A DNA stretch of 64,000 nt from Ramlibacter lithotrophicus (lineage in GTDB: Bacteria > Pseudomonadota > Gammaproteobacteria > Burkholderiales > Burkholderiaceae_C). The stretch is taken from the NCBI RefSeq assembly GCF_012184415.1, contig NZ_VTOX01000005.1, positions 1-64,000 of the forward strand, given 5' to 3'. Within the stretch, counting starts at the first letter, position 1; each line of letters begins with the position of its first letter. A program made the translations under genes and the position numbers. Positions 30,671 to 45,309 of the stretch are shown here, piece after piece. The notes below the pieces were generated by a model. The model saw only the letters and a program-made list of their open reading frames with translations, was not told the origin of the DNA and searched no databases.

Positions 30671-30681
30671 GATCTTTCCTC

Positions 30682-31416: not shown

Positions 31417-31444
31417 GGTGCGGACTTCGCGCTGACGGATGGCC

Positions 31445-31777
31445 TCAGACGCAGCCGGTCGGCTTGGGCAGGCCGGCGATCTTGCACGCCTGCTTGGCCG
31501 GGCCGTAGGGAAACAGCTCGTACAGGTACTTGCTGTTGCCCTTGTCGGGCCCCAGCTGCTTGCCGATGGCCTTGGTCAGCACCCGCACGGCCGGGGCGAT
31601 CTGGTACTCGTTGTAGTAGTCGCGCAGGAAATTGACGACCTCCCAGTGGTTGGGCGTCATGTCCACGTTCTCCGTCTTGGCGATGATGTTGGCCAGGTCC
31701 TCGTTCCATTCGGCGAGGTTGACCAGGTAGCCCTCCTCGTCCGTCTCGTAGGTGGCGCCGTTGATTTCGATGGGCAT
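31445..31777 (-). CDS. dsrC: DsrC, sulfur-carrier protein with both redox cysteines
   Basis: 110 aa. Canonical C-terminal arm KQACKIAGLPKPTGCV with Cys98 and Cys109. The latter accepts sulfur from DsrEFH, and both form the trisulfide/disulfide exchanged with DsrAB and DsrK. Body motifs are YETDEEGYLVNLAEWNEDL and MTPNHWEVVNFLRDYYNEY. It is the only one of three DsrC homologues in this window that keeps the cysteines, so it is the working carrier. It sits in the classic dsrEFHCMK order. Confidence 0.96.
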   Translation of the reverse strand: MPIEINGATYETDEEGYLVNLAEWNEDLANIIAKTENVDMTPNHWEVVNFLRDYYNEYQIAPAVRVLTKAIGKQLGPDKGNSKYLYELFPYGPAKQACKIAGLPKPTGCV

Positions 31778-31795
31778 GGGTGCTCCTCTTTCGCG

Positions 31796-32095
31796 TCAAA
31801 GCCAGGATTGGCAGGTTGGATGTCCGGCGGCCAGGTCGACGAAGCCGGCGTAATCGACGGGCTCGATGCCCGCAAGGCGGCGCGCGGCCATGCCGCGCGC
31901 CTCGAGGTCCGGCAGCAGCACGTAGACCTTCAGCCGCTGCAGCGCGCTGTCCAGGCCGCAGCGAGCCGCCAGCGCGGGGCTCGCGGCGTACACCGCGTCC
32001 TCGATCAGCAGGACGCTGTGCCCGTCCTGCGCCAGGCGCAGGCAGCTTTGCAGCGCGCCGGCGGCATCCGGAGACTTGTTGACGATGTGCAGCAT
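31796..32095 (-). CDS. dsrH: DsrH, subunit of the DsrEFH sulfur relay (TusB type)
   Basis: 99 aa. MLHIVNKSPDAAGALQSCLR is the standard N-terminus; VLLIEDAVYAA is the central strand-loop. It forms the DsrE2F2H2 heterohexamer in the cytoplasm that passes sulfane sulfur to DsrC. It starts ten bases after dsrF ends. Confidence 0.94.
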   Translation of the reverse strand: MLHIVNKSPDAAGALQSCLRLAQDGHSVLLIEDAVYAASPALAARCGLDSALQRLKVYVLLPDLEARGMAARRLAGIEPVDYAGFVDLAAGHPTCQSWL

Positions 32096-32105
32096 GGGTG
32101 GCCCT

Positions 32106-32462
32106 TCAGAAGGAAAGGACGACGTCCTGCGCCGCCATCAGGTCGGCCAGTTCGGCGCCGGAGAGCACCGCCACCGGCACCATCAGGTCGTCTTCGGTGA
32201 GGCCGCGCCGCTGCAGCGACTCGCGTTCGACGTACAGCTTGTTGATGTCGTAGTCGTCCAGCGCCCGGTAGGTGGGCGAGAAGTTCTTGACGCCGATCGC
32301 CTTGGTGTTCTGCGCCTTGGCGAGCTGCCAGACGCCGTCGTCCATGAAGACGAGGCTGCAGTCCTGGTCGAACGTCGCGGCGATCAGGACGACCTCGAGG
32401 CTCTCGAGCGCATAGACGGTGCCGTACGGCGCCTTGCGGTTGACGAACATGAATTTCTTCAT
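32106..32462 (-). CDS. dsrF: DsrF, subunit of the DsrEFH sulfur relay (TusC type)
   Basis: 118 aa from the ATG at 32462 (MKKFMFVNRKAPYGTVYALE). The frame continues upstream through a palindromic repeat, so the first ATG of the conserved region is used. The body QDCSLVFMDDGVWQLAKAQ and terminal MAAQDVVLSF are typical of the DsrF/TusC family. It has no catalytic persulfide cysteine equivalent to DsrE Cys78. Confidence 0.93.
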   Translation of the reverse strand: MKKFMFVNRKAPYGTVYALESLEVVLIAATFDQDCSLVFMDDGVWQLAKAQNTKAIGVKNFSPTYRALDDYDINKLYVERESLQRRGLTEDDLMVPVAVLSGAELADLMAAQDVVLSF

Positions 32463-32515
32463 CGCGATTGCTCCGCCGCTGTGCGCGCCATCCGCGGCGC
32501 ATGAAAACCGGGTGC

Positions 32516-32612
32516 TCCCTCTCCCGCCTGGCGGGAGAGGGTTGGGGTGAGGGTTGGCGCGCCACTTGGCACCCTCGTCCCCCGCCTTCTCGCGCAAGCG
32601 GGAGAAGGCGCC
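32516..32612. repeat. Two palindromic repeat units between dsrE and dsrF
   Basis: CCCTCTCCCGCCTGGCGGGAGAGGG (32518-32542) is a near-perfect hairpin followed by TTGGGGTGAGGG, a widely dispersed proteobacterial intergenic repeat. A second hairpin, CGCCTTCTCGCGCAAGCGGGAGAAGGCG, lies at 32583-32610. Neither is followed by a T-run on the minus strand, so they are not simple intrinsic terminators. The 192-base gap is the largest between consecutive genes of the dsrA-to-dsrM stretch. Confidence 0.8.
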
Positions 32613-32654
32613 AGGGCGGCGGCGCAGGCGGTGCGATAAGAGCCGGCCTTCATC

Positions 32655-33014
32655 TCAGTCCCCGAACGTCACCAGCCGGTCGCTCTTGATGCCGGCGTCG
32701 ACCAGCTGCCCCAGCCCGGAGATGCGGAACCCCGGGGCCAGCACTTCGTCCTTGATGCCGCGGCGCAGCGCCGCGGCGACGCAGACCACCAGGTCGACCT
32801 GGTGCTCCGCATTCAGCTTTGACCAGCGGTTGACGATGTGGCGGTCGTCCTGCGGCGGCTCGGTCAGCTTCGTCGCGTTGTAGACGCCGTCGTGATAGAA
32901 GAAGACGCGCTTGACCTCGTGGCCGCGTGCGATGGCCGCGGCCGCGAAGTTCCAGGCGGTGTCGGCCGCCTGGTGGGTGTAAGGGCCTTCGCTGACCAGC
33001 AGGGAGAATCGCAT
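32655..33014 (-). CDS. dsrE: DsrE, sulfurtransferase subunit of DsrEFH
   Basis: 119 aa. MRFSLLVSEGPYTHQAADTA is the usual opening; the active-site Cys78 lies in DLVVCVAAALRRG. It takes up sulfane sulfur from upstream donors and hands it to DsrC. Presence of DsrEFH marks an oxidative Dsr system. It starts two bases after dsrB ends. Confidence 0.95.
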   Translation of the reverse strand: MRFSLLVSEGPYTHQAADTAWNFAAAAIARGHEVKRVFFYHDGVYNATKLTEPPQDDRHIVNRWSKLNAEHQVDLVVCVAAALRRGIKDEVLAPGFRISGLGQLVDAGIKSDRLVTFGD

Positions 33015-33016
33015 GA

Positions 33017-34084
33017 TTAGAAGCGGATGTGCGCCGACGCGTTCAGGTTGGCGCGCGAGCCGCGCCAATCGTCGATCAGGTACTTGGTGAACGGCAGGTC
33101 GCACTTCTCGAAGAAGCGCGGCCAGCCGATGCGCTCGACCCAGTCCGACAGGCGCTCCCAGGGCCGCGCGTCTTCCTTGTACGTGTACAGGATCTTCTTG
33201 ACGATGGCCGACACTTCCGGCCAGCGCGGCGGGTTGTTTGGGATGCCCGAGGCGACCATCTTCATGAAGGTCGGCTTGCCGCGGGCGTTGGAATTCTTGC
33301 CGCCCACCCAGATCGCGAGCTTGGAATGCTCGGGATCGTTGATCTGCATCGGCGGGCACGGCGGGTAGCAGGCGCCGCAGCAGATGCATTTCTTCTCGTC
33401 GACTTCCAGCGACGGCTTGCCGTTCACCAGCGCCGGCCGGATCGCCGCGACCGGGCAGCGCGCCACCACGGCCGGCCGCTCGCAGACGTTGGCCACCAGA
33501 TCGTGGTTGATCTTCGGCGGCTTGGTGTGCTGCATGATGATCGCGATGTCGGCCTGGCCGCCGCAGTTGATCTCGCAGCAGGAGGTCGACATGTGGACGC
33601 GGTTGGGCATCTCCTCGCGGATGAACTCGGTGTAGAGGTCGTCCATGAGCGCCTTGACGGCGCCGGAGGCGTCGGTGCCCGGAATGTCGCAGTGCAACCA
33701 GCCCTGGGTGTGGGCGATCATCGAGACCGAGTTGCCGGTGCCGCCGACCGGGAACCCGCTCTCGGTGAGCGCGTTGATCAGCGGCGCCACCTTGTTCGGG
33801 TCGCCCACCATGAACTCGATGTTCGAGCGGATGGTGAAGCGCACGTGGCCGTCGGCGTAGGTGTCGGCGATGTCGCACAGCTTGCGGATGGTGTACACGT
33901 CCATCTGCCGCTGCGTGCCGGCGCGCACGGTCCACACCTCGTCGCCGTCCCACGCGACGTGGTGCAGCACGCCGGGGCGCGGGCGGTCGTGGTACTTCCA
34001 GTTGCCGTAGTTCTTCGCGAGTTTCGGGTGCAGGAACGGCCTGTTGTCGGGGCAGCCGCTTTCGATGGGGGTGCGATGGGCCAT
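33017..34084 (-). CDS. dsrB: Reverse dissimilatory sulfite reductase beta subunit DsrB
   Basis: 355 aa. Partner of DsrA in the cytoplasmic siroheme enzyme that, in oxidisers, converts DsrC-bound sulfur to sulfite. The siroheme/cluster region has MSTSCCEINCGGQADI. The ferredoxin domain has KKCICCGACYPPCPPMQI. The ending SLNASAHIRF-like tail (NLNASAHIRF) is the common DsrB C-terminus. Length is normal. It starts 14 bases after dsrA stops. Confidence 0.97.
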   Translation of the reverse strand: MAHRTPIESGCPDNRPFLHPKLAKNYGNWKYHDRPRPGVLHHVAWDGDEVWTVRAGTQRQMDVYTIRKLCDIADTYADGHVRFTIRSNIEFMVGDPNKVAPLINALTESGFPVGGTGNSVSMIAHTQGWLHCDIPGTDASGAVKALMDDLYTEFIREEMPNRVHMSTSCCEINCGGQADIAIIMQHTKPPKINHDLVANVCERPAVVARCPVAAIRPALVNGKPSLEVDEKKCICCGACYPPCPPMQINDPEHSKLAIWVGGKNSNARGKPTFMKMVASGIPNNPPRWPEVSAIVKKILYTYKEDARPWERLSDWVERIGWPRFFEKCDLPFTKYLIDDWRGSRANLNASAHIRF

Positions 34085-34098
34085 GCTGGCGCTCTCCT

Positions 34099-35391
34099 TC
34101 AGGCGGCCTTGCGGGCAGTGATCTTGGCGACTTCCTCGTCCCAGCCGTCGGTGCGGACGTACGGGTTGGTGCGCGGCGTCGACACCATGTGCGGGTCGAT
34201 CTCGACGCCGACGCCCTCGAGGAAGTTGACGAGGCCGATGCGCTCGATCATTTCGCCGGTGCGCTCGTGTTCCAGCGCGTTCTCGGCGAAGAAGTCGATC
34301 ACCCGCTGGCCCAGGTCGACCAGCGCCGCATAGTCCTCCTCGGTCTTGAGCGGCATGAACGGCACCACCACGGTGCCCATCAGGTCGCCGATCTTCAGCG
34401 TGCGCTTGCCGCCGACCAGAATCGTGGCGCCGGTGTCGGTGCCGTGGGCCAGGGCGCCCGTCATCACGTTGATGCAGTGCATGCAGCGCACGCAGTCGCC
34501 GTTGTCGATCTCCAGGGCGTGCGTGTCGCTGACCTTGACGCTGGTGATCTTCGGGCCGGCGCGGACGTCCTTCACCTCCTTGAGCATGATCGCCTTGGTC
34601 GGGCAGCGCGTCACCACGTCGTTGACCAGTTCGTTCATGCCGTGCTTGTCGAACCACTTCCGGGCCAGCGTCTCGTCGCTGCGCATGTTGTCGCGCCAGG
34701 TGCCGATGACGGCCATGTCGGCACGCTGGATCGAGTTCATGCAGTCGTTCGGGCAGCCCGAGAACTTGAACTTGAACTTGTAGGGCAGCGCCGGGCGGTG
34801 GATGTCGTCGGTGAAGGTGTTGATCACCGTGCGGTGCGCCTTCGCCTCGTCGTAGCAGCTCTGCTCGCAGCGGGCCGCGCCGACGCAGCTCATCGACGTG
34901 CGCACCGCCGGGCCGGCGCCGCCGAGGTCGAAGCCAAGCTCGTTGATCTCGTCGAAGGCGTCCTGGACCTTGTCGGTCTTCGCGCCCTGGAACATGATGT
35001 CGCCCGATTGCCCGTGGAAGGCGATCAGGCCCGAACCGTGCCGCTCCCAGATGTCGCACATCCTGCGCAGGATGTCGCTGGTGTAGTGCATGCCCGGCGG
35101 CGGCTGCACGCGCAGGGTGTGGAACTCGGCGGCGTCGGGAAAGACCGGCTTCTCATGCTCGTCCTTCAGCTCGGTGAAGCGCGGGATCACGCCCCCGCCG
35201 TAGCCGAACACGCCGACGGTACCGCCCTTCCAGTAGCCCTTCTTGGTGCGGTACGAGGTCTCCAGCGTTCCGAGCACGTCGACCATGTAGTCCTTGTCCT
35301 GGGCCAGGCGCTTCAGGCCCGTGACGAAACTGGGCCAGGGCCCGCCCTCGAGCTGGTCGAGGTTCGGCGTCTCATGCATCTTCTTCGCCAT
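34099..35391 (-). CDS. dsrA: Reverse dissimilatory sulfite reductase alpha subunit DsrA
   Basis: 430 aa from the ATG at 35391 (AGGAG nine bases upstream). The siroheme-[4Fe-4S] ligands are Cys169 and Cys175 (SCVGAARCEQSC) with Cys213 and Cys217 (SGCPNDC). A ferredoxin insert follows (CPTKAIML and DCVRCMHCINVM). Length and motifs fit DsrA. It is first in the dsr operon, divergent from the nine-gene operon, with palindromes 106-144 bases upstream. Oxidative direction is inferred from co-encoded DsrEFH and DsrL and absence of DsrD. Confidence 0.97.
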   Translation of the reverse strand: MAKKMHETPNLDQLEGGPWPSFVTGLKRLAQDKDYMVDVLGTLETSYRTKKGYWKGGTVGVFGYGGGVIPRFTELKDEHEKPVFPDAAEFHTLRVQPPPGMHYTSDILRRMCDIWERHGSGLIAFHGQSGDIMFQGAKTDKVQDAFDEINELGFDLGGAGPAVRTSMSCVGAARCEQSCYDEAKAHRTVINTFTDDIHRPALPYKFKFKFSGCPNDCMNSIQRADMAVIGTWRDNMRSDETLARKWFDKHGMNELVNDVVTRCPTKAIMLKEVKDVRAGPKITSVKVSDTHALEIDNGDCVRCMHCINVMTGALAHGTDTGATILVGGKRTLKIGDLMGTVVVPFMPLKTEEDYAALVDLGQRVIDFFAENALEHERTGEMIERIGLVNFLEGVGVEIDPHMVSTPRTNPYVRTDGWDEEVAKITARKAA

Positions 35392-35496
35392 GTGCTTGTC
35401 TCCTGCACGTTGAAGGCACGAATGTGCTTTCGGCGGCCGCCGCGCGCCATCACCCTCGTTGGTTAGTGGCGCGAATCGGAAGGGGCAGGCGCCACC

Positions 35497-35543
35497 TACC
35501 CGGATGGCGTAGCCGGCGCTCACCCGCAGCGGGTATGGACGGG
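35497..35543. promoter_or_regulatory. Paired 15-bp TACYC palindromes plus GGGTATGGAYGGG block, shared with 17380-17446
   Basis: TACCCGGATGGCGTA (35497-35511) and CACCCGCAGCGGGTA (35521-35535) each have two 7-base half-sites around one central A. Centres are 24 bases apart. The second runs into GGGTATGGACGGG (35531-35543), which differs in one base from 17390-17402 and points toward the plus-strand genes in both places. It lies between the divergent starts of dsrA (35391) and the nine-gene operon (35583), so it could control both. The NarL-like regulator at 18678 is the natural candidate. Confidence 0.62.
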
Positions 35544-35582
35544 CAGCGGGCGCCTCGCGCTCAATGCCGGACTCGAACCGCC

Positions 35583-35798
35583 ATGAAAGCAACCCTGTCC
35601 CTCTCCAAGCTGCGCGTGCCCGTCGGCGGGCAGGAGATCGAGCTGCAGCAGGTCGACCACGAGAGCGGCGGCATGAGCCTGCTGCGCACCCGGATCCGGG
35701 AGAAGAGCCGCTTCACCGTGTTCGACATCGACCCGATCACCGCGCGGCAATGGGGCGAAGCGCTGCTCCAGTGGGCGCGTGCCCAGCCCGAGGAGTGA
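35583..35798 (+). CDS. Small conserved-looking protein, first gene of the nine-gene operon
   Basis: 71 aa, MKATLSLSKLRVPVGGQEIE onward, no cysteine, no membrane segment. Alternating strands then a C-terminal helix rich in Arg, Gln and Trp (ITARQWGEALLQWARAQPEE). No function recognised. It follows the shared palindromes by about 40 bases. Only one base separates it from the GTG of the Cas6-like gene, so the two are co-translated. The frame stays open upstream, but no better start lies there. Confidence 0.75.
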   Translation: MKATLSLSKLRVPVGGQEIELQQVDHESGGMSLLRTRIREKSRFTVFDIDPITARQWGEALLQWARAQPEE

Positions 35799-35799
35799 C

Positions 35800-36414
35800 G
35801 TGGCAGCCGTGGTCGCCGAGATGATCGACGTCGCCTTCGCGCTGGAGGGCGATGCCGTGCCGCGGGAGCACCGGTTTGCGCTCGCCGAGGCGCTGCAGGA
35901 CGCGCTGCCCTGGCTCGGCGACGAGCAGCATGCCGGCGTGCACCGGCTCAAGCTGGTGGCGAGCGGCGACGGCGCCGAAGCGCTCGTGTCGCCTCGCACC
36001 CGCCTCATGCTGCGCGTGCCGCGCGGCCGCGCCGAGGCGGTCGATGCCCTGGCCGGGGCCGAACTGTCGCTCGGCAGGCGCCGGATTCGCGCCGGCCGGT
36101 CGCAGCGGCGCGAATTGCTGCCGCACGGCACCCTGTACGCGCCGCTGGTTGCCGCGGACAGCCGCGACGAAGCGCAGTTCCTGGTCGCAGTACAGCTCGC
36201 GCTCGACGCGCTGGGCGTGCGGGCGCAGCCGGTGTGCGGCCGCTGGCAGGCGGCCGAAGCCGGCCGGCTGATCGGCTGCAGCCTGATGCTGTCGGGACTG
36301 GACCGCGACCAGTCGCTGGCACTGCTGCAACGGGGGCTCGGTCCGCACCGGCGACTCGGCTGCGGCCTGTTCGTCCCGCACCGGTCGGCGGCCGCCGTCG
36401 GCACGCCGGCCTGA
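35800..36414 (+). CDS. Cas6/Cmx6-like RNA-binding protein, no CRISPR context
   Basis: 204 aa from GTG at 35800 (GAGGAG four bases upstream). It resembles the Cas6 subfamily annotated in type I-MYXAN systems (Cmx6). The N-terminal strand-helix is VAFALEGDAVPREHRFALAEAL, followed by DALPWL. The C-terminal glycine-rich RNA-binding loop is QRGLGPHRRLGCGLFVPH (residues 178-194). Cas6 cuts CRISPR repeats in pre-crRNA, but no repeat array or other cas gene is in this window. The next gene encodes a DsrC paralogue. It may process or bind another RNA. Whether His24 or other residues retain nuclease activity cannot be judged from sequence. Confidence 0.72.
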   Translation: MAAVVAEMIDVAFALEGDAVPREHRFALAEALQDALPWLGDEQHAGVHRLKLVASGDGAEALVSPRTRLMLRVPRGRAEAVDALAGAELSLGRRRIRAGRSQRRELLPHGTLYAPLVAADSRDEAQFLVAVQLALDALGVRAQPVCGRWQAAEAGRLIGCSLMLSGLDRDQSLALLQRGLGPHRRLGCGLFVPHRSAAAVGTPA

Positions 36415-36443
36415 CGCCAGACTTTCATCCCAGGGAGAAACAC

Positions 36444-36773
36444 ATGGCATACACCGTCGATGACCACGAACTCCTCGCCGACGAGCAGGGCTTCCTGCTC
36501 GGCCCCGACTACCGCGACGAGGTGGTCGACGCGATCGCCGCCGCCGAAGGCATCACTTTGACCGCCGACCACTGGACGGTCGTCCGCTACCTGCGCGACC
36601 AGTTCCGCGAGCACGGCCACACGCCCAATTTCCGCAACATGCTCAAGGACCTGGCCGAAGTGATGCCGGGGTGCGACAGCAAGTCGCTGTACGCCCTCTT
36701 CCCGACCGGGCCCGCGAAACAAGGCGCCAAGGTCGCCGGACTGCCGCAGCCGCTCGGCAAGGGCGGCTACTGA
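36444..36773 (+). CDS. Second cysteine-less DsrC-family paralogue
   Basis: 109 aa. Full DsrC/TusE fold: LLADEQGFLLGPDYRDEVV, LTADHWTVVRYLRDQFREHG, and KSLYALFPTGPAKQGAKVAGLPQP. The two arm cysteines are replaced by Ala95 and Lys106 (PLGKGGY), so it cannot carry sulfur. Cys77 elsewhere is not in the arm. AGGGAG precedes the ATG. Such members are proposed to be regulatory. Pairing with a Cas6-like protein on an operon divergent from dsrA suggests a partner or control role, not sulfur transfer. Confidence 0.85.
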   Translation: MAYTVDDHELLADEQGFLLGPDYRDEVVDAIAAAEGITLTADHWTVVRYLRDQFREHGHTPNFRNMLKDLAEVMPGCDSKSLYALFPTGPAKQGAKVAGLPQPLGKGGY

Positions 36774-36792
36774 AACTGGAATCCGACCCCAA

Positions 36793-37440
36793 TTGAGCGC
36801 GCTGCCCACTCCCGCCACGCCGCGACTGAAGACGCACTGGTTCCGCCATGCCGGCAGCCGCGGCGCCGACCAGCAGGCCAGCGCCGCCGCGTTCATCGTC
36901 TGGCGGGTGGCGCGGCACACGCTGGACCGCACGCGCCATGCCGGCTTCGGCGTCGAGATCGGCGAGCCGTATTTCCGCTTCCTGCGCGAGGTGCTCGCGT
37001 TCCTGGTCGCCGTCGCCGACCGCATCGCCCACGCGCGGCTGGAGCCGGTGCAGCGCATCGGGTTCACCACGGCCCTGGTGCATCACCTGGCGCGCATCCT
37101 GCAGGACAGCGAGGACGACCTGATCGGTCCCGCGCCGCCGGGCGAGCCAGCCAACGGCGAGCGCTTCATCGACCTGGTGAACGAGTTGTGTGCTCACTAT
37201 GCCGAGTTCGGCGCTGACCCCACCGCCGGCGCCGGCGGCTTCCACCCCGACTTCGCGTTCCTGCGCTACCTCGGCACCCGGCTGGAGCCGGCCCTGCCGC
37301 CGCACGACCGGCGCTGGATCGTCGACCAGGTCATCGACGTGCAGGCGCCCGAGGCGGTGGCCATGTTGCGCCGGTCGCTCGCCGACCTGTTCGATCCGCC
37401 CGCGCGGGCCAGGCGCGCGGCTTCCGTGAGCGGCGACTGA
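36793..37440 (+). CDS. Helical protein of unknown function
   Basis: 215 aa if started at TTG 36793; the ribosome binding site is weak and the true start is uncertain. Mostly alpha-helical, rich in Arg, Ala and His, with no signal or membrane segment. Distinct stretches are EPYFRFLREVLAFLVAVADR, FTTALVHHLARILQDSEDDL and RWIVDQVIDVQAPEAVAMLR. The protein has one cysteine. One base separates it from the TauD-type gene. No family recognised; the conserved-looking His-His and Asp-Asp pairs could bind metal. Confidence 0.7.
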   Translation: MSALPTPATPRLKTHWFRHAGSRGADQQASAAAFIVWRVARHTLDRTRHAGFGVEIGEPYFRFLREVLAFLVAVADRIAHARLEPVQRIGFTTALVHHLARILQDSEDDLIGPAPPGEPANGERFIDLVNELCAHYAEFGADPTAGAGGFHPDFAFLRYLGTRLEPALPPHDRRWIVDQVIDVQAPEAVAMLRRSLADLFDPPARARRAASVSGD

Positions 37441-37441
37441 G

Positions 37442-38368
37442 ATGCTCGTGATCGAACCGCGTTCGCGCTGCCGGGCCGCCAATCCGTTCGACCTCGGCAA
37501 CGAAGCCGGCTACCGGCGCTGGCGCCACTGGAAGCTGGCGCTGCAGCCGCGCCAGTTGCAGGACCTGTTCGTCGACGTGCGCGATCCGCACGACCTCTCG
37601 GCCGGCGAACGCAGCGCCCTGCAGGCATGCATCGCCCGAGCCGGCGTCGCCATCTACCGCTCGCGCGTGGTGGACGACGACCCGGACCTGCCGCGCCGGC
37701 TCGGCGCGCAACTGGGCCTGCACCGCCTCGACGCCAACTGGTTGGCGCAGGAGGACGGCGTCTCCAGGATCACCGTGTCCGGCGCGAGCGACGGCCACGG
37801 CTTCATCCCGTACACCAACCATCCGATCGGCTGGCACACCGACGGCTATTACCACCCGCAGCGGCGGCGCATCCGCGGCATGGTGCTGCATTGCGTGCGG
37901 CCGGCCGCCAGCGGCGGCGAGAACGCCCTGCTGGATCACGAGCTGGCGTACATCGCACTGCGTGACCGCTCGCCTCGGCTGGTGCAGGCGCTGATGGAGC
38001 CGGATGCCATGACCATCCCGGAGCGTCGCGGCGAGGATGGCGTCGCCCGGCCCGCGCAGGGCGGTCCGGTGTTCTCCATCGACGATGACGGTTGCCTGCA
38101 CATGCGGTACACGGCGCGCACGCGCTCCATCGCCTGGAAGGACGACGAAGTCACGGCCGCGGCGGTCGCGATGCTGCGCGACGTCATGAAGCAGTCCCCC
38201 GCGGTGTGGCGGGTGCGCCTGCAACCCGGCATGGGCATGGTCGGCCACAACGTGCTGCACGAGCGCAGCGCCTTCACGGACGACCCGCGTTCGCCGCGCC
38301 TGCTGCTGCGCGCGCGCTTCCTCGACCGGGTGCAGCCCCCCACGGAGGCCTCGTGGCGCAATGGGTGA
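37442..38368 (+). CDS. TauD/TfdA-type Fe(II)/2-oxoglutarate-dependent dioxygenase
   Basis: 308 aa. Double-stranded beta-helix enzyme with the iron facial triad: His132 and Asp134 in GWHTDGYY, and distal His273 in GHNVLHERSAF, with Arg275 placed to bind 2-oxoglutarate. The N-terminal 90 residues are a less typical helical region. The family hydroxylates taurine, gamma-butyrobetaine and similar small molecules. The substrate is unknown; desulfonation of an organosulfonate would suit the sulfur context but is only a guess. It overlaps the reductase gene by 16 bases. Confidence 0.85.
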   Translation: MLVIEPRSRCRAANPFDLGNEAGYRRWRHWKLALQPRQLQDLFVDVRDPHDLSAGERSALQACIARAGVAIYRSRVVDDDPDLPRRLGAQLGLHRLDANWLAQEDGVSRITVSGASDGHGFIPYTNHPIGWHTDGYYHPQRRRIRGMVLHCVRPAASGGENALLDHELAYIALRDRSPRLVQALMEPDAMTIPERRGEDGVARPAQGGPVFSIDDDGCLHMRYTARTRSIAWKDDEVTAAAVAMLRDVMKQSPAVWRVRLQPGMGMVGHNVLHERSAFTDDPRSPRLLLRARFLDRVQPPTEASWRNG

Positions 38369-39828
38369 GCATCTGGCGCGCCGCCCAACTGGCCGGCATT
38401 CCGCGCGCGACGCTGCAGCGGCAGGTGCGCGCGGGCGAGCTCGAGGAGAACGAGGGGCTGGTGTCCACGCGCTCGCTGCTGGCGCTCTATCCGCAACTGC
38501 AACTGGAGTCGGCCGGCCTGGCCGAGCGGGTGGCGCAGATTCGCGACGAGTCGTTCGGCCGGCGCGTGCGCGAGCGCCTGCTGCCGAGCCAGGAAGTGCT
38601 GGCGCAGCGGCTGTTCCGCCAGAGCCAGGAACTGGCCGACGCCCAGCGCCACCTGCAGCGCTACCACGCGCTGGTGGTGGTCTTGCGCGACGGGATCCGG
38701 CAACGCCAGCGCGAAGCGGGTGGCGATGACCCGCGGCTCGCAGCGCTGGAGCGCGAGCTCGCCGCCGGGCTGGCGCGGGTGCTGGCCACCGAGGCGGTGG
38801 ACGCCCTGCACGTGATGGACGACATGCTCAAGCTGATCTCGGCGCACGTCACGGTGCGACCCAGCGGCCGCCAGTTTGTGGTCGAAGGCCACGACACGCT
38901 GCTGCAGGCGGCACTGCGCGCCGGGGTGAACATCAATTACGGCTGTGGCAACGGCAGCTGCGGCATGTGCAAGGTCCGGGTCATCGCCGGCGAGGTGGCG
39001 CGCACCGGCCACAGCGACTACGCGCTGTCCGAGGCCGAGCGCAGCCAGGGCCATGTGCTGGCCTGCACCCACACCGCCGCCAGCAGCGAGCTCACGATCG
39101 AGACGCTGGAGGCGGGCGGGCCGGCCGACATCCCGCTGCAGCACATCACCGCGACGGTGCGGGCGCTGCGCGAGCTGGCGCCGGACATCTTGCACCTGCA
39201 CCTGCAGACGCCGCGCACGCACCGGCTGCGCTTCCTGGCCGGGCAGTCGGTCGCGCTGGGCCTGGCCGGCGTCGACGGCGCGCCGGCCCGGCACCCGGTC
39301 GCCAGCTGCCCTTGCGACGACCGCAACCTGCACTTCTTCCTGCCGCGCGATGCGGAGGACCCCGTCGCCACCCGCCTGTTCGAGGGCGCGGTGCGGGCGG
39401 GGGACGCGATCAGCGTGTGGGGACCTTACGGCCGCTTCACTCTGGCCGAGGGCTCGCAACCGCTGGTGTTCGTCGCCTGCGACCATGGTTTCGCGCCGGT
39501 CAAGAGCCTGATCGAGCATGCGCTGTCGCTGGACGCGGCGCCGTCGATCACCTTGTTCTGGCTGGCGACCCGCGCCGGCGGGCACTTCCTCGCCAACCAG
39601 TGCCGCGCCTGGTCGGCCGCCATCGACCTGTTCGAGTACAGCCTGTTCACCGACACGGAGGCCGCCGCCGGCGCCCTGCAGGTAGCCCGCGCGATGCGCG
39701 CCGACGTGTTCCAGATCGACTGCGAGTTCCATCTCGCGGGCCCGGTCGACTTCGTGATGACGATCGCCGCGCAACTGGCCGAGGCCGGCGTGTCCGAAGG
39801 CCAGATCCACGTGGAGGTGCTGCCATGA
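38353..39828 (+). CDS. HTH-like domain / [2Fe-2S] ferredoxin / FAD-NAD reductase fusion
   Basis: 491 aa from GTG at 38353 (GGAGG upstream). Residues 1-50 resemble a MerR/excisionase helix-turn-helix (WRAAQLAGIPRATLQRQVRAGEL). Residues 55-160 are helical and probably coiled coil. A plant-type ferredoxin follows with Cys197, Cys202, Cys205 and Cys237 (YGCGNGSCGMCK ... VLACTH). The C-terminal half is an FNR-like reductase (RHPVASC, GPYGRF). Its pyridine-nucleotide loop is VACDHGFAPVKS, diverged from the usual GGTG. It likely feeds electrons to an operon partner or senses redox state through the HTH-like end. Confidence 0.82.
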   Translation: MAQWVSIWRAAQLAGIPRATLQRQVRAGELEENEGLVSTRSLLALYPQLQLESAGLAERVAQIRDESFGRRVRERLLPSQEVLAQRLFRQSQELADAQRHLQRYHALVVVLRDGIRQRQREAGGDDPRLAALERELAAGLARVLATEAVDALHVMDDMLKLISAHVTVRPSGRQFVVEGHDTLLQAALRAGVNINYGCGNGSCGMCKVRVIAGEVARTGHSDYALSEAERSQGHVLACTHTAASSELTIETLEAGGPADIPLQHITATVRALRELAPDILHLHLQTPRTHRLRFLAGQSVALGLAGVDGAPARHPVASCPCDDRNLHFFLPRDAEDPVATRLFEGAVRAGDAISVWGPYGRFTLAEGSQPLVFVACDHGFAPVKSLIEHALSLDAAPSITLFWLATRAGGHFLANQCRAWSAAIDLFEYSLFTDTEAAAGALQVARAMRADVFQIDCEFHLAGPVDFVMTIAAQLAEAGVSEGQIHVEVLP

Positions 39829-40184
39829 GTTGCCACTGCGCCAGTCCGCCGCCTTCCGAACCCCAGGCGGAGGCCGGCTGCAGCGGCGGGGAATCCTTCG
39901 CCTTGCGCGTGCTCGGCTGCGACATGGAGCCCGAGTTCCGCGAAGGCGACATCATCATCGTCGAGCCCGACGGCGCACTGAAGGACGGCAGCTTCGTGCT
40001 GGCGCGCCCCGGCGGCGAATGGACGCTGCGCCAGCTCGCGCGCACGGAGGCTGGCTGGTTCCTGCGCGCCCTGAATGCCCCGACGGCGCCCGAATTGCCG
40101 CTGGCCGACCTCTCCTGCGTGCACGGCGTGGTGATCCAGAAAGCCGTGCCCGGCCGGCGCCGACTCACCAGGAGCTACATCTGA
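39825..40184 (+). CDS. S24/LexA-type fold protein lacking the catalytic dyad
   Basis: 119 aa. FALRVLGCDMEPEFREGDIIIVEPD follows the S24 peptidase core (normally GDSM-P...GD.v.v). The nucleophile Ser is replaced by Asp33, and the Lys expected near residue 68 is Leu or Arg (WTLRQL). No N-terminal DNA-binding domain is attached, so it is not a LexA or phage repressor. A cysteine-rich N-terminus (MSCHC, GCSGG) is notable. It may be a non-catalytic binding module. It starts in the stop of the reductase gene (ATGA). Confidence 0.78.
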   Translation: MSCHCASPPPSEPQAEAGCSGGESFALRVLGCDMEPEFREGDIIIVEPDGALKDGSFVLARPGGEWTLRQLARTEAGWFLRALNAPTAPELPLADLSCVHGVVIQKAVPGRRRLTRSYI

Positions 40185-40185
40185 A

Positions 40186-40404
40186 ATGCCTTACTTCCTC
40201 TACGCCGTCCAGCCGTTCGCCCAGCTGGAACAGCTCGCCGAATGCCCCACCTTCCCCGAGGCCTCGCGCCAGGCCAAGTCGCTGCGGGCCGCGCAGCCGG
40301 CGCCGGGCGCGCGGCGAATCCGCATCGTCTTCGCCGACACGCCGCTGGCCGCGGAGGACCTGCTGCTGCAGGTGCGCGAGGCGCCCCCGGACGGCGACGA
40401 CTGA
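40186..40404 (+). CDS. Small protein of unknown function
   Basis: 72 aa, MPYFLYAVQPFAQLEQLAEC onward, with one helix containing ASRQAKSLRAAQP and an acidic C-terminus ending in VREAPPDGDD. No signal, no membrane segment, one Cys. It starts one base after the S24-like stop and its own stop overlaps the next ATG, so it is firmly in the operon. No recognised family. Confidence 0.7.
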   Translation: MPYFLYAVQPFAQLEQLAECPTFPEASRQAKSLRAAQPAPGARRIRIVFADTPLAAEDLLLQVREAPPDGDD

Positions 40405-40838
40405 TGGACGAGCACGCACCGTCCGGCGAGTGCTGCGGCAGTGCCGCCGCCTGCGTGTTCGCCAAGGCGCTGCTGGCACGGACCGCGGCCTGCGAACTCG
40501 CGCAGCGTTCGAGCCTGGGCGAGCAGGAGCTGATCGTGTGCGGCTCACCGATGGCCCGCGTGGACTGCGCCACGGTCGCGGCCCTGCTGCACGAGCGCGC
40601 CCGGTTCGCGCTGCGGCTGCCAGCGCCTGGGCGTCCCCTGATGCACGTGCACGCGCTGCGGCTGCAGTGCGGCGGCCTGGCGGCGCTGACCGAGGTCATG
40701 GGTGGCCACGCGGATGTTCACCGGCTGGTCGCCGCTGCGCACGAGCGCCGCGGCGGCCTCGCGGATCTGCCCTGGGACCGCATCGTGCCCACCGTCGCGG
40801 GCTGGCAGCCGCGGCGCCGCGCCGCGCGGCGCGAGTAG
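40404..40838 (+). CDS. Protein of unknown function, last gene of the nine-gene operon
   Basis: 144 aa. An N-terminal pair of cysteines (SGECCGSAAACVFAKALL), then CELAQ, VCGSP and VDCATVAAL, gives seven cysteines in the first 90 residues with irregular spacing. The C-terminus is Arg-rich (RRRAARRE). There is no signal peptide. The ATG overlaps the previous stop by one base. Codon use and length look coding, but no family is recognised; a metal-binding role is possible from the cysteines and the histidines at 110-130. Confidence 0.65.
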   Translation: MDEHAPSGECCGSAAACVFAKALLARTAACELAQRSSLGEQELIVCGSPMARVDCATVAALLHERARFALRLPAPGRPLMHVHALRLQCGGLAALTEVMGGHADVHRLVAAAHERRGGLADLPWDRIVPTVAGWQPRRRAARRE

Positions 40839-41038
40839 CAGCCGCGCCGTCGCAGCGGGCGCGCCACTGTCGCAGATTGAGACCAGCGCGCTCGTTCTTG
40901 TCCTTCCTCAAAAGCGTCCCGGAACGCCACACCCGTGGCCGATCGCGTCCATAAAATCGGCGCCATCTGCTCCGGGGGGCTGCACTGGCTGCCGTCGACG
41001 TACTCACCAATCCATCCCTGGCGACCGCCTTCCAGTCC

Positions 41039-41953
41039 TTGCGCCTCGGGAAGACGGCGCCGGTGCGCCGCGCGGCCCATGCGATCGCCAGGCGCGGCCG
41101 TCCCGGCGCCGACACCCATCTGCAAGGGCAGGCCCTGCTGGTGCTGGCGCACGCCTACGTGCTGGAATCGAGGTTTCGCCTCGCGTATCGCTGTTGCTCG
41201 CAGGCGCGCGAGCGCTTCGCGCGGCATTCCGACGACCGGGGCCTCGCCGAATCGGCCGGGGTGCTCAGTTACGTCCTGAGCACACTGGGCCTGCACGAGC
41301 TCGCGGCGCGGGCGGCCGTCGAATGCATCTCGATGCCGCGGAGCGCCCGCGCGCCGCTGGTCCAGGCGTTCGGGCTCAACTATTCCGGCGTGGCAGCGTT
41401 CTGGGCCCAGGACTTCGCTACCGCCAGCGGCGTGCTGGAGGCGTCGGCCTGGTACGCGGGCGAGGCGCCGGGCGGCGGCGCCGGCTTCCACCCCCTCGTG
41501 AACGCCGGCCTCTGCGAGGCCCTGCGGATCGTGCACGGCGAGGCGGACGCAGATCTCTCGCAGATGGAATTCATCGTCGCGCGGGCCCGCGCCATGGAAC
41601 ATCGGGGCCGGGTAGGCACCTTGCCACTGGGAAGCCGCGACATCGGGCTGCTGTTGCTCGCGTTCGAGGAGTGCTTCCTGGCCTGCCGCCTGGGTAACCT
41701 CGAGGAGGCGGACGTGTGCTACCAGGTCTGCCGGGACCTCGCGACGCGCCTGCCGCCCACGAGCTGGCTGTACGCCGTCACCTGGTGGGCCAGGGTCGAA
41801 TGGGCGCAGGCCCGCGGACGCCGCGCGGAAGCACGCTCGTCCGCGGCGCAGATGGCGGCGTCGGCCAGGCTCGGAGAGCACACGCCGTTGCGGGTCCTGG
41901 GTCTCTCGATCGAGCACAGCCTGCGCTTCGCCGGCGGGCAGCGACAGCCCTGA
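41039..41953 (+). CDS. Helical-repeat (TPR-like) protein of unknown function
   Basis: 304 aa from TTG at 41039. No ATG or GTG precedes it in frame before the stop at 40952, so the start is uncertain. Repeated paired helices (ALLVLAHAYVLESRFRLAYR, FATASGVLEASAWYA, LGNLEEADVCYQVCRDLA) resemble tetratricopeptide repeats. No signal, enzyme or DNA-binding domain is seen. It is on the plus strand downstream of the nine-gene operon after a 200-base gap, and ends against a convergent hydrolase gene. Such proteins are often sensor-like scaffolds. Confidence 0.65.
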   Translation: MRLGKTAPVRRAAHAIARRGRPGADTHLQGQALLVLAHAYVLESRFRLAYRCCSQARERFARHSDDRGLAESAGVLSYVLSTLGLHELAARAAVECISMPRSARAPLVQAFGLNYSGVAAFWAQDFATASGVLEASAWYAGEAPGGGAGFHPLVNAGLCEALRIVHGEADADLSQMEFIVARARAMEHRGRVGTLPLGSRDIGLLLLAFEECFLACRLGNLEEADVCYQVCRDLATRLPPTSWLYAVTWWARVEWAQARGRRAEARSSAAQMAASARLGEHTPLRVLGLSIEHSLRFAGGQRQP

Positions 41954-42760
41954 TCAGCCCGTGGCGCCGGGCGTGCGCTGCGCCGAACCGGCCAGCGGCG
42001 TCTCGGCCGCCGGCCCGGTCTTGCCGGCGCGAGCGCCGAGCACCATCTCGGTCATCCAGTTGACCAACAGCGAGGTGTACGTCTGCTGCCACTCCTTCTC
42101 CGACAGGGCGTGGTCCGCGCCGGTGATCATGCGGTAGGTCAGCGACTGGGCCTGGGCGCAAGCCCCAATGTAGTTCTGGATCACCTGGTGCGGCACCAGC
42201 GAATCGTGCTCCGATTCGACGATCAGCACGTCGCCGCCGAACGCCGCGCAGGCGCGCAGCGCGCGGTTGTCCTCGGGACGCACCGCGCCATGCCGGTACG
42301 CGGCGAGTTCCTGGCGGTTCAGCTTGCCCTTGGGAACGTCCCAGTCGCCGTCCTGGTACAACGCCGGCACCCGCAGCGCCAGCCATCGCACCGGACGAAG
42401 CGCACTGGCGATCGCCGCCAGGTAGCCGCCGTAGCTGCTGCCGACGATCGCGACCGCAGCCGGGTCCACCGCCGGATGGCCGACCAGCACGTCGTAGGCG
42501 CAGACGACGTCGCGCAGGTTTTGTTCGCGGCTGACCGTTTCGCGCTGGTCCTGGTGCCGCACGTGGCCGCGCAGGTCGAACGTGAGGCAGATGCAGCCGA
42601 GCGCGGCGATCTCGTGGGCCCGCGCGATGTACTGGTCCTGGCTGCCGTCCCAGCCGTGCACCAGCAGCACGCCGGGCACCATGGTGTCGGGGCCGACCAG
42701 CGTGCCGGCGATGTGCTGGCCGTCCACCGGAATGTCGATCGGGTTAGTGCGCGTCGACAT
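41954..42760 (-). CDS. Alpha/beta hydrolase (dienelactone hydrolase-like)
   Basis: 268 aa. The oxyanion/strand region is VLLVHGWDGSQDQY. The nucleophile elbow VGSSYGGYLAA gives Ser109. An acidic residue in VESEHDSLVP and His in TGADHAL complete a likely triad. It is cytoplasmic, with no signal. The substrate is unknown. The ATG lies inside the end of the DUF3182 gene (17-base overlap), so both are made together. Confidence 0.85.
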   Translation of the reverse strand: MSTRTNPIDIPVDGQHIAGTLVGPDTMVPGVLLVHGWDGSQDQYIARAHEIAALGCICLTFDLRGHVRHQDQRETVSREQNLRDVVCAYDVLVGHPAVDPAAVAIVGSSYGGYLAAIASALRPVRWLALRVPALYQDGDWDVPKGKLNRQELAAYRHGAVRPEDNRALRACAAFGGDVLIVESEHDSLVPHQVIQNYIGACAQAQSLTYRMITGADHALSEKEWQQTYTSLLVNWMTEMVLGARAGKTGPAAETPLAGSAQRTPGATG

Positions 42761-43877
42761 GCGGTTCGACCACCGTGTACTTGGTGAGCAGGCCGACCTG
42801 CGGATCGATCGCCCGGAAATGGACCGTCGCGCCCGGCGGCGGCTCGGGGCTGGCGCCGAAGATCTCCACGCACCTGGTGCGCACACGGGTGCGCGCCGGC
42901 TCGCGGCGGAAGACCTCCAGCGCGGCCAGCTCGGCGCCGGTAGCGCCGCCGGCGCGCCAGGACTGTTCCAGCACGCCCGAGCGCCATTGCCCGGCCGCGT
43001 CGCGCCCCAGCGCGACGTCGTAATTCCTGCGTGAGGCGAAGAAGCCGGGATAACACGAGGCGACGCAGGCGTCGTAGCGCCGCGCCTGCTCGATCGCGTG
43101 GCGGATCTCGGGCCCCGGATCGGGCTCGAGCAGCGATTCGAGACCGCCGCGAGCTACAACGAGCTCCGAGCCGCCGAACACCTCCTCGCCGCGGTTGTCG
43201 CGCGTCAGCCGCTGCCAGCCGTAATAGCTGGCCATGAGGCCGGCAACCTGGACCTGCCCGACGCTGAACGTGCGGACCTGGTCCAGGTCCTGTTCCAGGA
43301 CCAGTCCGTGCCGGGCGAGTTCGGATGCGTCCGCTGCTGCCAGCGACCGTTCCAGTTCGGCCGCGTCGCGCGCGACCGACTGGCCGCGCCCGCCGGTGGC
43401 GCGCACCGGCTTGACCCGCACCGGCCCTTGCGCGAGCAGTTTCATGCCGGCCCGGCCGGCATCCTGGAGACTGAAGACGCTGTAGCCGGCCAGCACGGTG
43501 TCTCCGGCGCATGACGCGAACGCGGGGTTCCAGCCGGGAATCGCCGCTGCATCGGGCCCGACCAGTGGATGGCTGATCGCCTTGGTGGCCACGAAGGGGT
43601 ATGGCACGACGCCGCCGAAGAGATCGTCGACACAGTGGATGCCGAGCGCCACCGCCTGGTCGGTGGTCAACGTGGTGGACGGCAGGAAGTACAGGTGCGA
43701 CGCGCCATGACGGCCTGGCTGGTAGGCGCCGCTCGCTTCGTATCCCCGCAGCGCGGCCAGTTGCCGGGCGAACGCCAGGTGCGTGATGCGCTCGTGCTCG
43801 CTCGCATGGTCGTGCTCGTCGGGCGCATGGGTCACGACGACGCCGCGCGGGCCGGCAGGACTGGGCTGCAGGGACAC
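42744..43877 (-). CDS. DUF3182-family protein
   Basis: 377 aa from GTG at 43877 (SLQPSPAGPRGVVVTHAPDE follows). It matches the DUF3182 pattern, seen by me as LYFLPSTTLTTDQA, PYPFVATKAISHPLV, VRVKPVRATGGRGQ and YGWQRLTRDNRG. The KPVRATGGRGQ stretch recalls an ATP-grasp glycine-rich loop, so a ligase-like fold is possible. No activity is established to my knowledge. It is transcribed away from the bzd operon; 256 bases separate the two starts. Confidence 0.8.
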   Translation of the reverse strand: MSLQPSPAGPRGVVVTHAPDEHDHASEHERITHLAFARQLAALRGYEASGAYQPGRHGASHLYFLPSTTLTTDQAVALGIHCVDDLFGGVVPYPFVATKAISHPLVGPDAAAIPGWNPAFASCAGDTVLAGYSVFSLQDAGRAGMKLLAQGPVRVKPVRATGGRGQSVARDAAELERSLAAADASELARHGLVLEQDLDQVRTFSVGQVQVAGLMASYYGWQRLTRDNRGEEVFGGSELVVARGGLESLLEPDPGPEIRHAIEQARRYDACVASCYPGFFASRRNYDVALGRDAAGQWRSGVLEQSWRAGGATGAELAALEVFRREPARTRVRTRCVEIFGASPEPPPGATVHFRAIDPQVGLLTKYTVVEPHVDAH

Positions 43878-44042
43878 GGTATGGCTCCCGAAGGCTGTGG
43901 CGCATTCTGACGGGTGCGCCGGTCGCGGCCGTGTCGGACGGGAAGCCGAACCCGGGCGGGACTGGCCGGGCAGCGGGCGGCGGCTCGCGCCCGCGCGCAG
44001 GCTGGACGGCGTCGCGGCCATTGATGCATCGACGAAGAATGT

Positions 44043-44056
44043 TTGATCCAGATCAA
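44043..44056 (+). promoter_or_regulatory. FNR/ANR-type binding site and class II promoter of the bzd operon
   Basis: TTGATCCAGATCAA is an exact match to the FNR/ANR consensus TTGAT-N4-ATCAA. It is centred at 44049.5. Thirty bases further on, CAATAT at 44080-44085 could serve as a -10 hexamer, which would put the site near -41.5 of a start at about 44091, the class II activator position. The bzdN ATG is at 44134. It predicts expression when oxygen is low. Confidence 0.75.
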
Positions 44057-44133
44057 AACCACACCGCATGGCGGCGAGGCAATATTGGTATTCCGGTACC
44101 GCAATACGCCTATAGCCGTTCACAGGAGACGAC

Positions 44134-45309
44134 ATGGAGACCCAAGGACCAGGCCCCGAGGCCGAACTGGACGAGATCCTCGAGTACTGCAACAGCCTCA
44201 GGCAGTCGCCGGTCCCCCGCGACGACGCCCTGCCCGACGGCTTCAGCGGCACGCTCGGGCACTTTCCCGTCTACTTCCCCGAGGAAATCGCACACGCGGC
44301 CGGCCTGCTGCCGGTGGGTGTCCTGGGCGGCGGCAACAAGCTCGAGCTCAAGCATGCGGACGCCCACATGGGATCGTTCATCTGCTCGATCTGCCGCTCG
44401 ACCTCCGAGATGGGGCTGAACGGCTCCCTGCAGGGGCTCAAGGGCTTCATCACCCACCCGATCTGCGACGCGGCCAAGCACCTGGCCGGCATCTGGAGCC
44501 GCAACTTTCCCGACCAGCTGGCGCAGATCCTGTACCTGCCGCAGAACCCCAACACCCCCGGCGCCATGCGCTACGTCGCCGCCGAGTACCAGCGGCTGCG
44601 CGGCGAGCTGGAGCGCAAGTCCGGCCAGGAAGCCAGCGACGACAAGCTGCGCGCCAGCATCCGCGCCTACAACCGCAACCGCGCCCTGTTGCGCGAGCTG
44701 TACGCCATCCGCCGCGACGAGCCGTGGAAGCTGAGCTGCACCGAGTCGTACCTGCTGGTGCGGGCGCGCACCCGCATTCCGTGCGAAGCCCACAACGACC
44801 TGCTGGAGCAGGCGATCGCCGGCATCCGCGCGCGCAACCGCCAGGCCCAGGACAAGCCGCGGGTGGTGTTCGTCGGCGGATTCTGCGAGCAGCCGCCGCT
44901 GGAGATGCTGGAGGCGATCGACGACAACTGCTACGTGGTCGACGACGACCTGCTGATCGGCCTGCGCTGGATCACCGGCGACGTGCCGGGCAACGGCGAC
45001 CCGATCTGGGCCCTGGCCGAAAGCTTCATCCAGCGGTCGGCGGCCAGCCCGGTGCAGCACGACGAGCGCAAGACCAAGGAAGGCTACCTGATGGACATGA
45101 TCGCCGGCAGCCGCGCCGAGGCGGCGATCGTGACGGCCGCCAAGTTCTGCGAGCCGGGCCTGGACGAGCAGGTGGCCTGGTCCAAGCACCTGGACGAGGT
45201 CGGCGTGCAGTACCTGGTCCTCGAGTTCGAGGAAAAGATGACCTCGTTCGAGCAGATGGCGATGCAGCTCGAGACCTTCGCCGAATCCCTGCTCTTCGCC
45301 ACCGCCTGA
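44134..45309 (+). CDS. bzdN: Benzoyl-CoA reductase subunit, BcrC/BzdN type
   Basis: 391 aa member of the HgdB/BcrB-C iron-sulfur family that, together with BzdO, forms the catalytic half of ATP-dependent class I benzoyl-CoA reductase. Cysteines that may bind the [4Fe-4S] cluster include SFICSICRSTSEM, THPICDAAKH and KFCEPGLDEQ. Length fits BzdN/BcrC (about 390). CAGGAGA precedes the ATG. Order N-O-P-Q equals that of Azoarcus bzd. A related ring reductase or a 2-hydroxyacyl-CoA dehydratase is a less likely alternative because both ATPase subunits are present. Confidence 0.85.
   Translation: METQGPGPEAELDEILEYCNSLRQSPVPRDDALPDGFSGTLGHFPVYFPEEIAHAAGLLPVGVLGGGNKLELKHADAHMGSFICSICRSTSEMGLNGSLQGLKGFITHPICDAAKHLAGIWSRNFPDQLAQILYLPQNPNTPGAMRYVAAEYQRLRGELERKSGQEASDDKLRASIRAYNRNRALLRELYAIRRDEPWKLSCTESYLLVRARTRIPCEAHNDLLEQAIAGIRARNRQAQDKPRVVFVGGFCEQPPLEMLEAIDDNCYVVDDDLLIGLRWITGDVPGNGDPIWALAESFIQRSAASPVQHDERKTKEGYLMDMIAGSRAEAAIVTAAKFCEPGLDEQVAWSKHLDEVGVQYLVLEFEEKMTSFEQMAMQLETFAESLLFATA

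Follow-up and report, generated by a model that had tools for sequence, protein, structure and literature searches.

Why does a gene of CRISPR type stand, with eight close neighbours, back to back with the dissimilatory sulfite reductase operon of Ramlibacter lithotrophicus? We addressed this question in a stretch of 64,000 nucleotides (contig NZ_VTOX01000005.1 of assembly GCF_012184415.1, positions 1 to 64,000, forward strand), hereafter the window. According to the sequence and the list of its open reading frames (ORFs), nine plus-strand genes, g1 to g9, occupy 35583-40838. Their spacing is tight, with gaps of 1, 29, 19 and 1 bp from g1 to g5 and, from g5 to g9, overlaps of 16 and 4 bp, a gap of 1 bp and an overlap of 1 bp, the start codons being of our choosing. 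This bears out the preliminary description of this DNA, which had reported nine closely spaced genes divergent from dsrA: neighbours overlap or lie 29 bp apart at most, and the minus-strand dsrA, with its start at 35391, is separated from the start of g1 by 191 bp. The reverse dissimilatory sulfite reductase (rDsr) pathway, whose set of genes is regarded as known, accounts for much of the oxidation of sulfur in sediments, aquifers and symbioses. Our results indicate that the block almost certainly belongs to this pathway. Genes g1 to g5 are its older core, and the window carries one version of a widespread module divergent from dsrAB.

Linkage of the module core to dsrAB extends over beta- and gammaproteobacterial genome sequences. 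In a class-level sample of 369 genomes, profile searches found the family of the Cas6-like protein g2 (PF09559) in 118 and DsrA in 119; 111 genomes have both, 7 only Cas6, 8 only dsrA and 243 neither. An order-level sample of 200 gave the same picture, with the Cas6-like protein in 37 genomes, DsrA in 40 and both in 36, leaving 1 with Cas6 only, 4 with dsrA only and 159 with neither. The lone Cas6-only genome of the order sample (G075) has a weak, partial match (E 5e-4) with no module nearby. Among the seven of the class sample, some may be assembly breaks, since in one of them (G325) the contig stops at the TauD gene. In a phylum-level sample of 229 genomes PF09559 was found in 2, both previously known. 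The Cas6-like gene is nearly always present in a single copy per genome, mostly beside dsr, across many families of the samples. Of 35 betaproteobacterial loci, 34 have dsrAB on the opposite strand and the last one (L062) has a piece of dsrA at its contig edge; in 30 of the 37 gammaproteobacterial regions that bear the Cas6-like gene, dsrAB is reversed close by. The same arrangement is seen in 76 of 80 loci that we call the named loci, the best 80 of at least 585, which are biased to close relatives of the window. The preliminary description had proposed a joint system tied to sulfur oxidation, against which scattered and unlinked homologues would have spoken. We found the opposite, as homologues are mostly linked and co-occur with dsrA (36 genomes of the order sample, 111 of the class sample). 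A role in Dsr sulfur oxidation is thus strongly supported by this linkage at the sequence level.

The composition of the block differs between groups. In betaproteobacteria the usual order is dsrA reversed, followed by the DUF6967 protein (g1), the Cas6-like protein (g2), the DsrC-like protein (g3), a rhodanese or a double TusA, the helical protein (g4) and the TauD-type oxygenase (g5); the sulfurtransferase sometimes precedes the DsrC-like gene. Of these, the helical protein is found in all 35 loci, DUF6967 in 33 and TauD in 28. A sulfurtransferase lies within the block in 32 of the 35 (20 rhodanese, 13 double TusA, one locus having both), a component of most other betaproteobacterial blocks that was not visible from the window alone. 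In gammaproteobacterial regions, searched with profiles made from the betaproteobacterial sequences, TauD leads on the module strand (25/37), usually followed by a small protein (cluster c9), the Cas6-like protein and the DsrC-like protein. Kinship of DUF6967 with the similarly placed c9 protein is not supported (probability 1.6%), and DUF6967 is rare in the class sample (7/369). A few kb downstream of the module, two families (clusters c11 and c13), presumably 2-oxoglutarate oxygenases, recur in gammaproteobacterial loci L107-L146, together with DUF6866.

Table 1. Positions of the genes of the block, of the divergent dsr genes and of the region between them in the window, with family matches and occurrence.
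Feature	Position	Strand	Matches and occurrence
g1, DUF6967 small protein, 71 aa	35583-35798	+	PF22295 1.6e-29; 78/80 named loci
g2, Cas6/Cmx6-like protein, 204 aa	35800-36414	+	PF09559 1e-48; TIGR02807
g3, thiol-less DsrC paralogue, 109 aa, C-terminus LPQPLGKGGY	36444-36773	+	PF04358 6.8e-30
g4, all-helical protein, 215 aa	36793-37440	+	no Pfam family over cut-off
g5, TauD-type Fe/2-oxoglutarate oxygenase, 308 aa	37442-38368	+	PF02668 4.1e-26
g6, fusion of weak helix-turn-helix (HTH), coiled region, 2Fe-2S ferredoxin and ferredoxin-reductase-like part, 491 aa	38353-39828	+	
g7, S24-fold protein without Ser/Lys, 119 aa	39825-40184	+	PF00717 4.2e-15; 33/80 named loci
g8, 72-aa protein	40186-40404	+	no family match; 29/80 named loci
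g9, 144-aa protein	40404-40838	+	no family match; 20/80 named loci
dsrA-g1 intergenic region	35392-35582		three imperfect operator-like inverted repeats ACCC-N4-GGGT
dsrA, divergent partner of g1	34102-35391	-	heads dsrABEFHCMK, then L, J, O
canonical dsrC inside the dsr operon, C-terminus GCV	31451-31795	-	

Further information about g2 was obtained from its predicted structure. The model (predicted local distance difference test score 94.9) superimposes on the Cas6 of a type I-B CRISPR-associated transposon (CAST; 8fcj_B) with Z 24.8, a root-mean-square deviation (rmsd) of 2.2 over 193 aligned residues and 23% identity, and all 50 structural matches listed are CRISPR proteins. The two sequences also match by phmmer (5.9e-11), and g2 scores 126.8 bits against TIGR02807 (cas6_cmx6), whose cut-off is 98.85. 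According to the model, g2 has a true Cas6 fold, and its Cas6/Cmx6-like identity, already named in the preliminary description, stands. It shares with the Cas6 of type I-B CAST and type I-MYXAN CRISPR systems the entire fold, Arg72 and a glycine-rich loop, G-x-G-x5-G-C-G (residues 179-189), which we take to be the RNA-binding element of Cas6. Residue conservation was counted in 149 sequences from the dsr samples (146 distinct, a few genomes appearing twice, after exclusion of 4 of the 80 named sequences as over-long reads). The loop glycines are fixed in these proteins as in five CRISPR proteins (G179 149/149, G181 147/149, G187 149/149, G189 149/149).

However, g2 is unlike CRISPR Cas6 in several respects. 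Besides the low identity, its conserved neighbours are dsr and module genes, with no adjoining cas genes, and it has fixed residues of its own. R66 (148/149), E124 (149/149), G147 (149/149) and K195 (147/149) are fixed in the dsr group and not in the five CRISPR proteins, and H194 is present in 140/149. In a tree of 99 of the 155 sequences, a branch with support 100/99 separates 93 dsr-sample proteins, a few of them encoded away from dsr in their genomes, from six proteins of cyanobacterial plasmids. Five of the six adjoin cas3 and other cas genes. The sixth, the Cas6/Cmx6 of Gloeobacter morelensis (L231:3974-4765), lacks annotated cas genes within the displayed region and stands two genes away from a 3'-phosphoadenosine 5'-phosphosulfate (PAPS)-reductase-like gene and a cupin. 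In viral contigs, none of seven pattern matches held a Cas6.

The second hallmark of the core is its DsrC relative. g3 scores 90.5 bits against TIGR03342 (cut-off 53.5), besides its PF04358 match (Table 1), and its family profile matches DsrC of known structure (1yx3) at E 1.3e-30. The module protein thus has the same body as the DsrC/TusE family and differs from it by the missing penultimate cysteine and a fixed KGGY end. As proposed in the preliminary description, it is a DsrC paralogue unable to carry sulfur, since it ends GKGGY without a C-terminal cysteine. The KGGY tail is found in 134 of 140 module-strand DsrC proteins; the six remaining cases comprise one protein ending KAGY, two reads that are cut off and three further DsrC copies. 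A cysteine at position -15 is present in only 12 of the 134. DsrC proteins of the opposite strand, in gammaproteobacterial and named loci, end GCI or GCV in 90 of 93 cases. As loss of the cysteine goes along with a fixed new tail, these sequences point to a retained, different function of the KGGY protein. DsrC family members without cysteines are said in a review to be possible regulators, and DsrC of Allochromatium vinosum reportedly binds the dsr promoter, which our literature check did not show. A search of the window's own genome with g3 gave three DsrC-type proteins: the GCV protein of the dsr operon, the GKGGY protein of the module and a third one (21663-21977, minus strand), which ends TKGEH without a terminal cysteine. 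The KGEH ending also occurs on a second DsrC in two other loci (L181 and L228). The penultimate cysteine of DsrC is strictly conserved according to PMC3397948.

A KGGY-type thiol-less DsrC was also observed in an IMG/VR contig (L261, IMGVR_UViG_3300032087_002997, positions 3974-4315), whose gene sizes and order are phage-like and whose viral status comes from its membership of the collection. A phage survey (PMC8190135) describes five DsrC proteins with neither cysteine motif and supposes that those without cysteines most likely act as TusE. Given the L261 protein, phage DsrC without cysteines may have its host counterpart in the KGGY protein of the module as well as in TusE.

It is tempting to propose that the block, as a so far unnamed module accessory to oxidative (rDsr) sulfur metabolism, acts in RNA-level or assembly control through its Cas6-like and thiol-less DsrC proteins, a plausible reading if not quite a probable one. 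As the DsrC body is kept and the sulfur-carrying cysteine is lost, g3 would dock where DsrC docks (DsrAB, DsrEFH or DsrMK) without transferring sulfur, as a mimic or an occupancy sensor; some docking to Dsr proteins is probable. The Cas6-like protein would be a CRISPR-type fold acting as an RNA binder, most likely on dsr transcripts. That it binds RNA in the cell we consider rather likely; dsr mRNA as the bound RNA is a tentative suggestion. In this way, expression or assembly of Dsr would follow the enzyme's state. In genomes that have it near the block, the oxygenase would modify a module partner or a small molecule in a reaction dependent on oxygen or 2-oxoglutarate. The preliminary description had left the choice between RNA-level control, redox sensing and a modification pathway, and the model of g2 favours the first, because the Cas6 fold keeps its glycine loop. 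According to the alignments, each of three proteins of the core (Cas6-like, DsrC-like and TauD-type) has a set of fixed residues of its own.

Among other explanations, a relict or orphan CRISPR processing protein, standing next to dsr by chance or hitch-hiking and still serving arrays elsewhere, is suggested by the family models, which annotate g2 as a type I-MYXAN Cas6/Cmx6. Nevertheless, no cas1 was found in the window's own genome, which was the genome searched, and the gene lies mostly beside dsr, nearly always in one copy, in many families. We rejected this explanation as highly improbable on account of the missing cas1 in that genome and of the residues fixed only in the dsr group. The statement of the preliminary description that there is no CRISPR array agrees with our results, as none of the 20 largest repeat families in 30000-45000, out of at least 60, forms a regularly spaced array. 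Another candidate is an RNA sulfur-modification branch, in which Tus-like parts, an RNA-binding Cas6-like protein and an oxygenase would modify an RNA base in cells that oxidise sulfur. The tRNA 2-thiouridine relay, described in PMC3397948, has such part types: TusA and rhodanese, together with a relative of TusE/DsrC and the TusBCD relatives DsrEFH. The block has in common with this relay (TusA-TusBCD-TusE-MnmA) a TusA, a TusE-like protein and adjoining DsrEFH; a rhodanese or double TusA is present in 32 of 35 betaproteobacterial blocks, g3 belongs to the TusE/DsrC family and the Cas6 fold has its glycine loop. However, the carrier cysteine that relays sulfur is gone from the DsrC-like protein, and family scans showed no thiouridylase-like (MnmA-like) family among the nine genes. 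Moreover, neither the block of the window nor those of the 33 named loci that have both g6 and g7 include a sulfurtransferase, and only 2 of 37 gammaproteobacterial regions do. We find this explanation improbable.

Modification of a protein rather than of RNA would have the TauD-type oxygenase hydroxylate the invariant Lys or Tyr of the KGGY tail, which would then act in DsrAB. Here the evidence comes from the fixed tail and from g5 itself. Its metal triad and arginine (H132, D134, H273, R286) and six aromatic residues (Y124, W131, Y136, Y137, Y170, W232) are kept in 120/120 homologues with more than 250 aligned residues, three shorter rows of the 123 being left out. Related enzymes act on trimethylated amines, including trimethyllysine, and TmpA is the sole PDB match of g5 by sequence (E 9e-4). 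g5 shares the family and the triad of TauD/TfdA oxygenases, but its TmpA and trimethyllysine dioxygenase matches are weak and far below the curated cut-offs (38.8 of 400 bits and 36.6 of 268.3 bits, respectively). In addition, TauD is not near the block in some loci that keep KGGY (for example L119, L129, L137 and L141), where copies elsewhere in the genome were not sought, and we regard the explanation as rather unlikely. A role as assembly chaperones for Dsr membrane or sirohaem enzymes, with a Cbp3-like helical protein (Cbp3 being a cytochrome b chaperone) and the other proteins as scaffolds, was suggested by the model of g4 (six helices, predicted local distance difference test score 88.7). 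VIA-align ranks 6rwt, a homologue of Cbp3, first (Z 9.7, rmsd 5.0, 165 aligned residues; next row Z 6.0). Helical folds reach such Z values by chance, however, and the best Foldseek match has E 0.21, with 6rwt absent from the 50 rows shown. Profile comparison with 25 Cbp3 proteins by hhalign gave a probability of 0.1%, and the 20 families listed for 38 members of the g4 family do not include PF03981 (Cbp3). Sequence comparison gave no support to Cbp3 kinship, which we kept as a structural lead only, and we attach little probability to the chaperone role.

Our proposal of a control module also has to face several observations that do not favour it. The co-occurrence of Cas6 and dsrA carries Fisher p values of 5e-34 (order sample) and 7e-75 (class sample) that are uncorrected for kinship, eight dsrA genomes of the class sample have no PF09559, and no dsrAB was found within the fetched stretch of 7 of the 37 gammaproteobacterial regions, two of which end at contig edges. 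Several parts are not constant. TauD is not near the block in 12/37 gammaproteobacterial regions and 7/35 betaproteobacterial loci, some of them at contig ends, and only 17 of the 37 regions have the helical protein on the module strand (one has it reversed), often several kb further on. The sulfurtransferase of betaproteobacterial type occurs in only 2/37. A reaction-centre protein, sought with a view to a link between missing TauD and purple phototrophy, was found in none of the 117 dsrA genomes tested (of 119); the lone match is in G305, a genome with no dsrA hit. In the Cas6-like protein, the candidate catalytic His48 is present in 119/149 sequences and absent at that column from all five CRISPR proteins. 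Finally, an RNA target was not found, either by folding of the dsr operon intergenic regions or by an Rfam scan, in which nothing in 20000-42000 of the window reached gathering scores. Fold energies below -15 occur after dsrC in 75 of 113 loci, and shuffled sequences give 64, so most of these hairpins reflect base composition. The stem-loops of 56/113 loci beat all five of their own shuffles. By eye they differ in sequence, they are missing from several Rhodoferax loci, and in the window the gap after dsrC is only 28 bp and has no strong hairpin. The stem-loops between dsrC and dsrM possibly provide segmental mRNA control of dsrC. Their association with His48 (66/92 with it, 9/21 without, p 0.012, kinship ignored) is weak and was not used as support.

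The region between dsrA and the module offers a different kind of signal. In the window, the inverted repeats lie at about 35450-35469, 35495-35513 and 35520-35538; the strict pattern TACCCNNNNGGGTA, with up to two mismatches, does not score there. Reading by eye 40 printed sequences out of 75 intergenic regions, we saw up to three ACCC-N4-GGGT repeats in many betaproteobacteria (regions of L149-L190). By their sequence, these repeats look like DNA operators rather than an RNA signal and are likely sites of a dsr regulator common to both directions.

The remaining genes, g6 to g9, are specific to a clade. The preliminary description had treated the nine genes as a unit, and 18 of the 80 named loci do hold all nine on one strand, which exceeds a chance grouping. 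Nonetheless, the complete set g6-g9 lies within the block in these 18 only and in none of the 35 other betaproteobacterial loci of the order sample, which does not support the nine as the unit; genes 1-5 are the older core. The first search for g6-g9, by iteration from single sequences in 36 fetched betaproteobacterial regions, may have missed distant homologues there. The carriers bear labels such as Rubrivivax, Rhodoferax, Hydrogenophaga, Polaromonas and Leptothrix. In 33/80 named loci g6 and g7 occur and the module strand has neither rhodanese nor double TusA; g7 together with either of them was found in 0/80. Many of the loci with g6 and g7 have one TusA gene on the other strand, at a distance of a few kb. 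Because of this exclusion, g6-g9 look like a replacement or an extension in a clade whose block lost its sulfurtransferase. The split is not clean, as a g6 homologue follows TauD together with rhodanese in four Thiobacillus-type loci (L195, L198, L199, L225). Furthermore, in L190, L197, L209 and L221 g6 and g8 (in L190 also g9) are on the other strand a few kb off, which indicates that these genes are able to move apart from the module.

As for their products, g6 is on the module strand in 41/80 named loci, a few of these being weak matches. Its description as a three-part redox fusion stands for the 2Fe-2S ferredoxin part (Fer2 6.5e-18), while the HTH and FAD_binding_6 parts gave only weak matches. 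g7 shares the S24 profile of self-cleaving LexA/UmuD proteins without their Ser-Lys dyad. At what we take to be the place of the dyad, the window copy has GCDM where Ser is expected and Arg instead of Lys. The preliminary claim of an S24 fold without the dyad holds in this copy, which lacks both residues. The homologues mostly differ from it in the Ser: in an alignment of 10 rows including the window, read by eye, 7 of the other 9 have Ser, and Lys is replaced by Arg in all 10. In g9, five cysteines (Cys17, Cys30, Cys46, Cys55, Cys89) are invariant in 10 aligned rows, which suggests an unnamed family with a metal or Fe-S site. Elsewhere in the dsr operon of the window, about 1.4 kb between dsrK and dsrL (27758-29182, minus strand) is mostly missing from mapped betaproteobacterial relatives; the sole ORF scanned there (27496-29094) has no Pfam family match.

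We found no account of the Cas6-like protein or of the block with dsr genes in the open-access literature (PMC5728499, PMC10952691, PMC3397948 and PMC8190135 among it), most subscription papers lying outside this coverage. The recognised parts each belong to known families and their combination, with a Cas6 outside CRISPR, fits no system known to us. The block is nearly as tied to dsrA as a pathway gene, being present in 111 of the 119 dsrA genomes of the class sample, and it was overlooked because its main member is labelled as a CRISPR protein.

In summary, the PF09559/Cmx6 label in these bacteria is not by itself evidence of CRISPR, and the module offers a host counterpart for phage DsrC genes without cysteines. 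It is doubtful, though conceivable, that Cas6 as the RNA-binding arm and a thiol-less DsrC as the sensor of Dsr occupancy form a control module in two large proteobacterial groups. If true, this would extend the use of Cas6 beyond CRISPR and transposon guidance, and would reveal a feedback loop linking energy metabolism and RNA.

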